From an uncultured Coriobacteriaceae bacterium (GTDB lineage Bacteria > Actinomycetota > Coriobacteriia > Coriobacteriales > Eggerthellaceae): a stretch of 64,000 nucleotides of DNA. The notes under the pieces were generated by a model. The model was not told the DNA's origin, ran no database searches, and worked only from the letters and a program-made list of their open reading frames with translations. Each line of letters opens with the position of its first letter. Position 1 is the stretch's first letter. Shown one piece after another: positions 5,497-38,592 of the stretch. The position numbers and the translations under genes were made by a program. The DNA lies in assembly GCA_949294735.1 (NCBI GenBank), contig CASFII010000007.1, positions 62,001 to 126,000 on the forward strand, written 5' to 3'.

Positions 5497-7134
5497 ATGA
5501 AAAACGCTTCTTTGGTTAAACGCCTCATAGTAATTCCAACCCTTGCTTTCGTATGTGCTGTAAGTGTTGCCTTGTCGGGATGCAACGGCGACATAGGTCA
5601 ATTCGACGAAGATGAAGTTTCTGCCCAGGCGTGCTCCTATATGTCAGATAAATACGGCGGACAGTACCGCGTGATGAATCTTTGGGAAGACAAATCGTAT
5701 TCGCTTTTTAACTACAACAGCTTGCATCGTGTGTTTTGCGAAATGTCCGATGGCAGCACGGTTATTGTTCCCATTGGTGAAAAAGCAGGCGAACCGCTTT
5801 TGGACAACAAGCAGGCGCATGAAATTTGTGACGAGGTATACGACGTTGCCATTGCCGATATTGTCAATTCAGGTACGGAAGACTTAAAAGCGCAAGGCTA
5901 TACCGTCAATGGGGCATTTGTGAATAGATGGTCACCCGAATTGTTTGACTCTTCTGCTGTTATTTCTCAATACAGCTGGGAAAGCGAAGTAGGAAGCGAA
6001 GAGGCAAACGGATCAGAAATAGGTGCCAGCACTGATTTGCCTGGTGAAGCTGAAGAAGACCTAGAAGAACAGCTGGTCGAATTTGAAACCAAAGAATCAC
6101 CCTTTTTCCATGCATATTACGATGGTAACCGTAATGCTTTTATAGAGGCCGAAAAAGACCTTGTCTCCATGAGCACCTTAGATATTTGCTACGAAATTTC
6201 AGGTCCAGGCGCCAACTACGAAATGGGTATTCCCGTAGATGCGCCCACGATTCCTCTTTGGGAAACGCCGCTGGACAAAGCGGGCGCAGCTTTTTCTCAG
6301 TTGTTTGGAGATAAATTTTTCGGAAACCTTTCGCTTTATCAGACAGGGTATGTAACTAACTATGGCAGCACAGGTAGTACGCTCGTTGCTGAAGATGGTT
6401 CTGGATTTTTGGGCGAACTAAAATATCTTGGTGACTATCATGCTTGGCTGGTGGTGGACTGGTTTTATCTTGGGCATGGCATTTGGGTAACCAGCGACGA
6501 ACATGGCGTTCGCCTGCAAGAAGGTGATGTAACTATCCAGGTAGGCGAGGCTCCTAGTTTTGAGGAACTTGCTCCTGAACGGTATTTTGCTTCAGATTAC
6601 CCGCGTACTTTTGATGCTAATGCGCTTGAGCAGTACACCATTTCCTTAACAGACGAAAAAGCCGCTGAGCTTATTGCTAAAGATGAAGACATTGCAGAAT
6701 ACGGTTGGTTTAGTGCTCGGATAGCCTATGACAACAAAAGCCCTGATTGTGGGTTTGCTCAGAGTGTGACCATTAGTGATCTCTCTCCTTCGCTCTATGT
6801 GTATGAACTGGAAGAGTCGGACGATGTTCCGGTAGCTAGCAGAGAATGGGTTACTCCCGCGTATGCAGCTACAGCGTATACAGGTAGTCTTTCGGATAAT
6901 AGCGAAGTGATTTCTGCAATTGAAAGCGGTGGCGCGGGAAGCACAGGCGATACAGGAAGCGCCGACGATGAGGGAAATTCTGGCGGTGCGGGAAGCATAG
7001 AACCAGAAAACACCGAACCTGAAGAATCTGCTTATGCGTTTTCGGGGCTTTCTAAAACCCTTATGTCGAATGGATGGCAGTATGGAAGGCTCGTCGTAAG
7101 CGTTAACGAGCCCGCTCTGTATGTGCGCTTTTAG
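5497..7134 (+). CDS. Large putative lipoprotein of unknown function
   Basis: This 545-residue protein begins with a basic stretch, a hydrophobic core and the lipobox ALSGC, so it is probably anchored to the outer face of the cell membrane. The mature part is acidic. Residues about 470-515 form a Gly/Ser/Glu-rich low-complexity linker, followed by a short C-terminal module. No family is recognised with confidence. The ATG at 5497 is chosen because GGAGGTGAGG sits just upstream; a TTG at 5479 would put extra residues before the signal peptide. It stands alone, on the same strand as the dehydrogenase that follows. Confidence 0.8.
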   Translation: MKNASLVKRLIVIPTLAFVCAVSVALSGCNGDIGQFDEDEVSAQACSYMSDKYGGQYRVMNLWEDKSYSLFNYNSLHRVFCEMSDGSTVIVPIGEKAGEPLLDNKQAHEICDEVYDVAIADIVNSGTEDLKAQGYTVNGAFVNRWSPELFDSSAVISQYSWESEVGSEEANGSEIGASTDLPGEAEEDLEEQLVEFETKESPFFHAYYDGNRNAFIEAEKDLVSMSTLDICYEISGPGANYEMGIPVDAPTIPLWETPLDKAGAAFSQLFGDKFFGNLSLYQTGYVTNYGSTGSTLVAEDGSGFLGELKYLGDYHAWLVVDWFYLGHGIWVTSDEHGVRLQEGDVTIQVGEAPSFEELAPERYFASDYPRTFDANALEQYTISLTDEKAAELIAKDEDIAEYGWFSARIAYDNKSPDCGFAQSVTISDLSPSLYVYELEESDDVPVASREWVTPAYAATAYTGSLSDNSEVISAIESGGAGSTGDTGSADDEGNSGGAGSIEPENTEPEESAYAFSGLSKTLMSNGWQYGRLVVSVNEPALYVRF

Positions 7135-35791: not shown

Positions 35792-37363
35792 CTAGTTTGT
35801 GGCCTTCTTACCTCGTGTGTCTTCGCCAATAGTTTTCTTAAGCACCAGACAAGTGATGATGGTAAGCGCCACACCTATGGCTAAGCAAATAGGAGCGTTG
35901 CGCACAAAGCCCGCAATCACGAAACATACGAAAGAAAGCGAGCCAACCGTAATAACGTAGGGCATCTGAGTGGCTACGTGTTCAAGGTGATTGCAGTTAG
36001 CGCCAGCCGATGCCATGATGGTTGTGTCTGAGATAGGGGAACAGTGGTCGCCCGCAACAGCGCCTGCCAAGCAAGCGGAAATACCGATGATTTGTAAGTC
36101 AGGGGCGCTCGCAAAAATAGGAATGACAATCGGAATCAAAATACCAAAGGTGCCCCAGCTGGTACCTGTTGCAAAGCCTAAGCCCCAGGCCACCAAGAAG
36201 ATAATGGCAGGAAGCATAGAGTAGAGTTCTGCAGCCGAGCCTTCCATAAGCCCTGACACAAATTCGCCAGCTCCAAGAGCACTCGTCATGCCTTTAAGCG
36301 TGAGTGCAAACATCAAAATGAGCATGGCAGGAATCATGGCGTTAAAGCCATGTACCATACAATCCATAGCTTGCCTGAAGTCAACCACGCGGCGCACCAG
36401 CATATAGACATAGGCAAACACTAGCGCAATGATGGCACCCCAGGGAAGCGCGGTAAAGGCATCAGTGTTACCAAAGGCAAGAACGACGTTCATATATCCT
36501 TCAGCGCTTTCGTCCCAAAAACCGCCAACGTAGAGCATGCCAACAATACAAAAGACAATGAGCACGCCAATGGGAATAATCATGTCGAGCAGATGAGCAC
36601 GAGAGTTTTCTACAGCGGTGTCGTTACCAAGGGATCCAAGCTTTCCTTCGCGGATAGCTGCAAGTTCGGATTTTGCCATAGGGCCGTAGTCAAAACCCAT
36701 AACCGTAATCACAATTACAAAGACTAAGGTCAAAAGCGAATAGAAGTTAAAAGGAATTGCGTTAATAAACAGCTGAATGCCGTCAACTCCCACGTCAGCC
36801 GCCACGCCCGATACGGCTGCCGCCCAGGAAGACACTGGCGCAATCATGCACACGGGAGCGGCGGTGGCATCAATCAAGTAGGAGAGCTTTGCGCGAGAGA
36901 GGCGCTCAGCGTCTGTGACAGGGCGCATAACAGAGCCCACGGTCAAACAGTTAAAGTAGTCATCTACAAAGATAAGCACACCCAGTACAAAGGTAGCAAG
37001 CTGAGAACCTAAACGACTTTTCACATGCGTTGCTGCCCAGCGGCCAAATGCGGCAGAAGCGCCCGTTGCATTTACGAGTGCTACAAACACGCCCAGCATG
37101 ACCAAAAAGATAAAGATGCCCGCATTTTCTGCTAAGGCAGGTACAAGACCAGTGGTCAAGGCGTCTTCTTCGGTACCTCCTGTAGGAATGTATGAACCAC
37201 TAATGAGGGTGTCGACGGTGTCAATGGGGTTAAACCCAGCTAGCAGCAAGGCTCCTACCACAATACCAATAAATAGTGCACTGTAGGTTTCTTTGGTAAT
37301 AAGCGCCAGCCCAATAGCAACTAGCGGCGGCACCAATGCCCAGAATGTATTAACGAATTCCAC
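35792..37363 (-). CDS. NhaC-family carrier, probable lysine transporter
   Basis: This 523-residue protein has 11-13 hydrophobic segments and belongs to the NhaC family of the ion transporter superfamily. The VFVDDYFNCLTVGSVMRPV segment and the later GDHCSPISDTTIMASAGANC are the family hallmarks. By sequence alone it would be called a sodium/proton antiporter. The lysine riboswitch directly upstream makes lysine uptake the better guess; an NhaC-type lysine transporter (LysW) was predicted before on such grounds. The start is a GTG, with AGGAGG eight bases upstream. Confidence 0.87.
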   Translation of the reverse strand: MEFVNTFWALVPPLVAIGLALITKETYSALFIGIVVGALLLAGFNPIDTVDTLISGSYIPTGGTEEDALTTGLVPALAENAGIFIFLVMLGVFVALVNATGASAAFGRWAATHVKSRLGSQLATFVLGVLIFVDDYFNCLTVGSVMRPVTDAERLSRAKLSYLIDATAAPVCMIAPVSSWAAAVSGVAADVGVDGIQLFINAIPFNFYSLLTLVFVIVITVMGFDYGPMAKSELAAIREGKLGSLGNDTAVENSRAHLLDMIIPIGVLIVFCIVGMLYVGGFWDESAEGYMNVVLAFGNTDAFTALPWGAIIALVFAYVYMLVRRVVDFRQAMDCMVHGFNAMIPAMLILMFALTLKGMTSALGAGEFVSGLMEGSAAELYSMLPAIIFLVAWGLGFATGTSWGTFGILIPIVIPIFASAPDLQIIGISACLAGAVAGDHCSPISDTTIMASAGANCNHLEHVATQMPYVITVGSLSFVCFVIAGFVRNAPICLAIGVALTIITCLVLKKTIGEDTRGKKATN

Positions 37364-37389
37364 GTGCGTTCCTCCTCCTTAAATACAAA

Positions 37390-37405
37390 ACCATGCTTCC
37401 ATGGT
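37390..37405 (-). terminator. Short hairpin of the riboswitch expression platform
   Basis: On the minus strand, ACCATG-GAAG-CATGGT is followed by TTTGTATTTAAGG, between the riboswitch and the AGGAGG of the NhaC gene. It could end transcription when lysine is bound, although the stem is short; alternatively it may mask the ribosome binding site. Confidence 0.5.
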
Positions 37406-37410
37406 CAAAA

Positions 37411-37599
37411 GAGAGGAACCGCAACGTCCTCAGATTATAACCATGACAGCTCTCCGCTGAGCGACAGTGCTCAGGATATTCTCCTGAACCCCAGGTCACA
37501 CGCTGGCGGGAACCCTCATGTGCCTTCGGCGATATCCCCTTTCAGTTCGGCGTTTCCCGACGCCTGAGCGAACCTACTTTTGAATATCGCGCCTCTGTC
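37411..37599 (-). promoter_or_regulatory. Lysine riboswitch
   Basis: Reading the minus strand, the conserved core segments occur in the proper order. AGAGGCGCGATATTCAAAAG with GTA opens the structure, GAAAGGGGATATCGCCGAAG follows in the middle, and ACTGTCGCTC with GGAGAGCTGTCA comes near the 3' end. The closing helix pairs AGAGG with CCTCT. These match the lysine riboswitch class (L box) closely. It lies about 48 bases before the NhaC-family gene, which should be repressed when lysine is abundant. Confidence 0.93.
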
Positions 37600-37612
37600 A
37601 TTCAATTTTCAA

Positions 37613-37687
37613 TGGAGCGGGTGACGGGACTCGAACCCGCGAATAATGGCTTGGGAAGCCATTGCCTTACCACTTGGCGACACCCGC
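37613..37687 (-). tRNA. tRNA-Gly (anticodon CCC)
   Basis: The minus strand folds into a complete cloverleaf: a 7-bp acceptor stem (GCGGGTG/CACCCGC), a short D arm, an anticodon stem ATGGC/GCCAT with the loop TTCCCAA giving anticodon CCC, and a T arm with GTTCGAGTC. Discriminator T and an encoded CCA end follow at 37613-37616. It sits just upstream of the lysine riboswitch on the same strand. Confidence 0.95.
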
Positions 37688-37800
37688 AATATCGTTTCGC
37701 CTGAACATCGCGCCTGTGAACGCACGTGCTCAAAACGAACGAACGCTAGTATAGCGCATCTGGAAGAATTCTTATGGAGAACGTTTTCGCTACTGACATT

Positions 37801-38592
37801 TTACCCTAGTGTCACGTCCAGAATCATCATGAGTACAAAACCTAGAGCTAAGGCGACGGCGCCTACGTTGGTGTGCTTGCCCGCTTGGGTTTCAGGGATG
37901 AGCTCTTCTACCACCACATACATCATGGCACCTGCCGCAAAGGCTAGAACGTATGGTAAGAAGGGTGTCATGATGCCAATGCACGCTATCATCAACGCAG
38001 CACCCAGTGGTTCCACAGCCCCTGATGCAACGCCATACAAAAAAGCCTTTCTACGTGAGAGACCGCTTGAAACTAAGGGCATAGAAACAATAGCACCCTC
38101 GGGAATATTTTGGACAGCAATGCCTATTGCTAGACTCAATACGCCTGCAAATGCGATGGAGGTTTCACCCGACAAAAATCCTGCGAGGACAACGCCTACT
38201 GCCATGCCTTCGGGTAGATTGTGTAATGCCACCGCAAATATCAACATGGTAGGTTTTTTCATGCGTGAGGGCATGCCTTCGGGCTTTGAGTCGTCTAGGT
38301 GTTGATGAGGGAGGAAATGGTCAATAGCTAACAGCATTCCAATACCCAACAGAAACCCAATTGAGGCAGGCACCCAGCCGAGGACTCCCTGAGCTTCTGC
38401 ATTTTCGATAGCAGGAATTAATAAGCTCCATACTGAGGCAGCAATCATGACGCCAGCGACAAATCCCAATAGCGCTTTCTGCAGCAATTCACCCATGACT
38501 TGTTTTAGAAAGAACGCGAATGAGGAACCAAAGACTGTTCCCAAAAAGGGAACCATAAGGGCCACGATTATGCCAAGGTTTAATTCGCTCAT
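37801..38592 (-). CDS. ZIP family metal transporter
   Basis: This 263-residue membrane protein is a ZIP family carrier, importing zinc or other divalent metals. About eight helices are seen. The metal-site motifs HNLPEGMAVGV and QNIPEGAIVSMPL are intact, and the loop between helices contains the histidine-bearing FLPHQHLDDS. AAGGGAGAC precedes the ATG at 38592. It is closest to the GufA/ZupT branch. No zinc regulator gene is next to it; the 113 bases to the tRNA hold nothing else. Confidence 0.92.
   Translation of the reverse strand: MSELNLGIIVALMVPFLGTVFGSSFAFFLKQVMGELLQKALLGFVAGVMIAASVWSLLIPAIENAEAQGVLGWVPASIGFLLGIGMLLAIDHFLPHQHLDDSKPEGMPSRMKKPTMLIFAVALHNLPEGMAVGVVLAGFLSGETSIAFAGVLSLAIGIAVQNIPEGAIVSMPLVSSGLSRRKAFLYGVASGAVEPLGAALMIACIGIMTPFLPYVLAFAAGAMMYVVVEELIPETQAGKHTNVGAVALALGFVLMMILDVTLG

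Follow-up and report, generated by a model that had tools for sequence, protein, structure and literature searches.

The closest described relatives of this locus are the lysW genes (COG1757), which have been proposed as candidate lysine transporters (PMC5584792, PMC545781). PMC5584792 describes lysW riboswitches in Firmicutes, Gamma- and Betaproteobacteria, and the Coriobacteriales in its table carry lysA-type operons. A passage in PMC11477304 states that the function of NhaC genes placed in this way 'remains unknown' and gives pH homeostasis as an alternative. The same source records that OFF behaviour has been shown for the lysine riboswitches of B. subtilis and E. coli. Some NhaC relatives have been shown to carry amino acids: the Halobacterium protein is an arginine/ornithine exchanger (PMC5300872, PMC7193027) and the S. 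aureus protein a histidine importer (PMC10817146). Tyrosine T-boxes are also reported upstream of NhaC genes in Firmicutes (PMC2494555).

We analysed a 64,000-nt stretch of DNA (the window) that holds a locus of the lysW kind. We consider it likely that the NhaC-superfamily carrier here, of the lysW type and most likely a lysine importer, is under the control of an OFF riboswitch that responds to lysine, and that the leader originates in a tRNA transcript.

The riboswitch, the carrier gene and their relatives

On the minus strand the order from 5' to 3' is a ZIP-type carrier, tRNA-Gly(CCC), 7 bases, the aptamer, a 75-nt linker and the NhaC-superfamily carrier. The features are listed in that direction:

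37801-38592, minus: ZIP-type metal carrier gene, upstream of the tRNA (ZupT model, 125.5 bits versus a cut-off of 252)
37748..37753, minus: TATACT, a candidate -10 box for the tRNA promoter (recurrence of GCGCTATACT)
37613..37687, minus: tRNA-Gly(CCC) with encoded CCA end (ARAGORN; RF00005, 66.7 bits)
37439..37605, minus: lysine riboswitch aptamer RF00168 (cmscan, 91.6 bits, E 7.8e-23, full length)
37595..37601, minus: 5' strand of helix P1, ATGACAG (Rfam alignment and constrained fold)
37439..37449, minus: 3' strand of P1, CTGTCATGGTT (duplex energies and constrained folds)
37389..37406, minus: hairpin GACCATG-GAAG-CATGGTT followed by TTGTATTT (terminator scan, 7 pairs; fold)
37362..37427, minus: long hairpin in which, in the predicted OFF state, the Shine-Dalgarno region is paired together with part of the start codon (fold)
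37371..37380, minus: Shine-Dalgarno sequence AAGGAGGAGG (sequence)
35792..37363, minus: NhaC-superfamily carrier, lysW type, 523 aa, GTG start at 37363 (PF03553, 147.4 bits; orthologs; AlphaFold2 model)

The preliminary description had seen the core segments of a lysine riboswitch in order on the minus strand before a gene, and had proposed a search with the Rfam lysine covariance model as a check. That search, run over the whole window, bears it out: the score lies far above the RF00168 gathering score of 30 bits, and model positions 1–182 of 182 are covered without truncation. The span first given, 37411–37599, omits 6 nt at the start of the aptamer model and takes in 28 nt of the expression platform. 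A scan of the whole source assembly (1.34 Mb, 8 contigs, 86% complete) returned the window copy as its sole lysine riboswitch.

The Pfam domain that places the gene in the NhaC superfamily (PF03553, cut-off 23 bits) is named "Na_H_antiporter"; the preliminary description had remarked that the gene would otherwise be called a sodium/proton antiporter. No other PF03553 gene occurs in the source assembly. The protein falls far below the cut-offs of TIGR00931, the NhaC Na+/H+ antiporter equivalog (48.1 versus 370 bits), NF052307, the ArcD arginine/ornithine antiporter (42.4 versus 650 bits), and NF000013, Tet(35) (171.1 versus 750 bits). The relatives that are 75–80% identical to the carrier belong to records with the names Rubneribacter, Slackia, Gordonibacter and Eggerthellaceae, which makes a host within the Eggerthellaceae most likely. 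A sequence search found no solved relative at E ≤ 10. The AlphaFold2 model (pLDDT 86.6, 50 sequences) shows an INDY/ArsB-type elevator fold, and fold comparison (Foldseek, then VIA-align on Foldseek's top 1000) places it next to INDY/DASS, ArsB, Pho90 and TRAP carriers. The best match is 8y5u_A (VIA Z 23.9, rmsd 3.8, 408 residues aligned); a computed MleN model, 9a59_A, is matched as well (Z 21.2, rmsd 4.2, 416 residues). These models support a solute-carrier elevator fold, which says nothing of the substrate.

The pairing of riboswitch and carrier recurs in relatives. In a search of 138 genomes of the same family, 50 genomes yielded lysine riboswitches, 62 in all, and 65 yielded relatives of the carrier. 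The listed carrier matches number 67; 61 of them are 64–100% identical to the window carrier, and 46 of these 61 orthologs have a riboswitch 51–134 nt upstream on the same strand. Upstream of the other 15 none was found, even at E ≤ 0.1; in two cases, G108 and G121, the contig ends and leaves at most 25 nt of upstream DNA, and in G108 a riboswitch sits at the extreme end of another contig. The six matches at 43–51% identity lack the riboswitch, and a rescan of five of them (40–47% identity in a second comparison) again gave 0 of 5. Among relatives from named genomes, many of them Clostridia, RF00168 was found upstream of 44 of 80 (18, 8, 8 and 10 of 20 each; 5 of the 80 have less than 450 nt of upstream DNA), at 57–365 nt from the matched frame. 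In a quick tree of 134 carriers, with SH-aLRT support only and with rows short of upstream DNA scored as lacking the riboswitch, the element is scattered across the whole ortholog group and absent from four outlying paralogs. Well-supported branches force at least 16 changes in its presence, so that the riboswitch appears to have been lost or gained repeatedly.

Sixteen of the 62 family riboswitches do not precede a carrier ortholog. Judged by eye, 12 of these lie before lysA-, dapA- or dapB-like frames, and the rest lie before a glycyl radical enzyme (2) or at a contig end (2). Second lysine riboswitches in the family precede frames that read as lysA- or dapA-like (L045, L049, L058, L080, L082, L085, L088, L090 and others). 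The glycyl radical enzyme cases, both outside the window, have the riboswitch 60–75 nt before the gene (L087 in genome G101, L089 in G102). At E ≤ 1e–150 that enzyme occurs in these two alone among the 138 family genomes; in G102 it is followed by an activase-like frame and scores below every listed NCBIfam cut-off (best TIGR01774, 656.6 versus 678.2). Among the papers searched, none mentions a lysine riboswitch as well as a glycyl radical. In one named genome (L150), a tandem glycine riboswitch lies on the opposite strand at 6067–6226, near a riboswitch-linked carrier.

Mutually exclusive folds of the leader

Computation yields two mutually exclusive folds for the window leader. The CATGGTT at the aptamer end, within the 3' strand of P1, duplicates the 3' arm of the GACCATG-GAAG-CATGGTT stem and can therefore pair with GACCATG instead. 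In constrained folding, the structure with P1 forced has –91.6 kcal/mol and pairs 9 of the 10 Shine-Dalgarno bases, and the structure with the CATGGTT:GACCATG pairing forced has –85.9 kcal/mol and pairs 4 of them, energies that leave aside ligand binding, tertiary contacts and co-transcriptional folding. In these computed structures the closing of P1 thus competes with the alternative fold of the expression platform. The 84 nt after the aptamer (37355–37438) fold with an MFE of –28 kcal/mol (z –3.33, 0 of 200 shuffles as low), and the GACCATG-GAAG-CATGGTT element, weak and terminator-like, is nested inside the sequestering hairpin. A consensus scan returned two terminator-like sites versus 0.5 expected; no strong terminator was found in the window leader.

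The duplex between the P1 3' strand and the linker was compared with shuffled linkers. It is stronger than expected in the window leader (p 0.01) and in 20 of 46 family leaders at p ≤ 0.05 (15 at p ≤ 0.01). The other 26 miss p ≤ 0.05, two of them (G135 and G136) probably because the aptamer end is misplaced. In 16 of the 46 leaders the predicted Shine-Dalgarno pairing exceeds 0.6, and in 9 our own rule predicts a terminator, which suggests that the output mechanism differs between relatives.

We infer from these models that the leader is an OFF switch. At low lysine P1 would be open, its CATGGTT would pair with GACCATG, and the Shine-Dalgarno sequence would be mostly free. With lysine bound P1 would close, GACCATG would enter the hairpin with its weak terminator-like stem, and the Shine-Dalgarno sequence would be buried, halting carrier synthesis.

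The junction with tRNA-Gly(CCC)

The system of the window is ordinary overall, and its only unusual element is the tRNA junction. The tRNA-Gly(CCC) gene, which the preliminary description did not mention, ends 7 nt 5' of the aptamer, and neither a terminator nor a separate promoter-like box lies between the two. Over 74 nt the tRNA matches tRNAs from three other genomes of the family exactly, and GCGCTATACT, found before it in the window, also precedes tRNA-Gly(CCC) in three other loci (L232, L233 and L235). A terminator-like hairpin follows tRNA-Gly(CCC) within 100 nt in 18 of 27 assessable other family cases, versus 14 of 84 shuffled sequences (28 cases were assessed including the window genome, and two of 30 skipped); within 100 nt after the window tRNA there is none. 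Within 45 nt upstream of the aptamer, a perfect TATAAT is present in 25 of 46 leaders versus 1.3% of shuffles, and one with at most one mismatch in 40 of 46 versus about 23% (the window genome is included among the 46). The best TATAAT-like box of the window has two mismatches and lies within the tRNA; in the near relatives G017 and G019 the best box also has two mismatches. A promoter-like match overlapping the aptamer (37612–37583) was rejected, since one such match was found versus 0.6 expected and since the start would fall within the aptamer.

Unless it ends inside the seven-base gap, any transcript of the tRNA must continue into the riboswitch. The 7-nt gap and the missing terminator and promoter-like box together imply, barring an assembly error, that tRNA, riboswitch and lysW are co-transcribed, and one transcript probably carries both tRNA-Gly(CCC) and the riboswitch. 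The leader would then begin as the 3' part of the tRNA-Gly(CCC) transcript, with the tRNA promoter driving the carrier, and would be released by cleavage within the AU-rich spacer between tRNA and aptamer. We see about an even chance of a fusion into a single transcription unit, in which the tRNA promoter drives lysW, the riboswitch mRNA gains its 5' end through 3' processing of the tRNA, and the hairpin of the riboswitch replaces the lost tRNA terminator. Such a fusion would tie the supply of the carrier both to tRNA transcription and to lysine. The junction, if real, would be a small natural case of a tRNA precursor giving rise to a riboswitch transcript.

Of the 62 family riboswitches, 1 is immediately preceded by a tRNA on its own strand, and a combined pattern of tRNA T-arm and aptamer core was found in 1 of 396 genomes of the class, which led us to reject a conserved tRNA-riboswitch pair. 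As a raw count, tRNA genes occur somewhere in 10 of the 62 fetched riboswitch loci. The close relative G019 has its tRNA-Gly(CCC) downstream of the carrier; G092 has it 430 nt upstream of the aptamer, with a terminator-like hairpin of its own (L241). Taken together, these observations make the join look recent and particular to this lineage. Among the titles listed by literature searches, none dealt with a tRNA-riboswitch join. The same rarity, the position of the tRNA in G019, and a genome that is 86% complete in 8 contigs would also fit an assembly error at the junction, the real riboswitch having its own promoter. We consider such an error improbable: the junction is well inside a 198-kb contig, and the tRNA, complete down to its CCA end, is identical to those of three relatives.

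Carrier function and comparison with known systems

Lysine uptake is the best-supported function of the carrier. It is the most economical reading because some NhaC relatives carry amino acids and because the lysine riboswitch recurs before the gene. The preliminary description had gone further in two respects. Its advice to annotate the gene as lysine uptake agrees with the clade-wide pairing and with the low TIGR00931 score, but the substrate and the direction of transport are deduced from this context. Its premise that a riboswitch context marks NhaC-type lysine transporters matches the lysW proposal, but is stated more firmly than the passage in PMC11477304 allows. With lysA present in the source genome (472.6 bits), auxotrophy does not compel the import of lysine; as evidence for import we discarded lysA as uninformative, since 131 of the 138 family genomes have it.

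The carrier might instead be a true Na+/H+ antiporter for pH homeostasis, switched off at high lysine as lysine decarboxylation takes over. PMC11477304 and PMC5584792 both give this alternative, the Pfam domain name agrees with it, and the acidic residues D134, D135, D439 and D446 are conserved across 130 carriers of the riboswitch clade. Four paralogs without a riboswitch have these residues as well, so they cannot tell antiport from lysine import, and the antiporter equivalog model is missed by a wide margin; we regard this reading as unlikely. Exchange of lysine for another cation (e.g. cadaverine, ornithine or arginine) or lysine export, for which the haloarchaeal arginine/ornithine exchanger is a precedent, is very unlikely, given that an OFF riboswitch would regulate an exporter in the wrong sense and that the ArcD model is far from matched.

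The evidence for lysine uptake supports annotating the carrier and its orthologs in the family and in Clostridia as lysW-type lysine importers and not as generic sodium/proton antiporters. The compact gene is also suited to testing the substrate question that has been posed in review.

Compared with the L-box (RF00168), the window aptamer shares a full-length covariance match, all core segments in order and P1-dependent alternative folds, and it differs in lying 7 nt after a tRNA gene with no promoter-like box of its own. With the NhaC Na+/H+ antiporters of TIGR00931 the carrier has the Pfam domain in common, but its score of 48.1 bits is far short of the curated cut-off, 370. C. difficile CD1655 has the same riboswitch-NhaC arrangement (PMC11477304) in another phylum. 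Finally, the locus resembles lysW in having an NhaC-superfamily gene immediately after a lysine riboswitch, an arrangement that recurs in its relatives; the likeness drawn here is one of gene arrangement and family.
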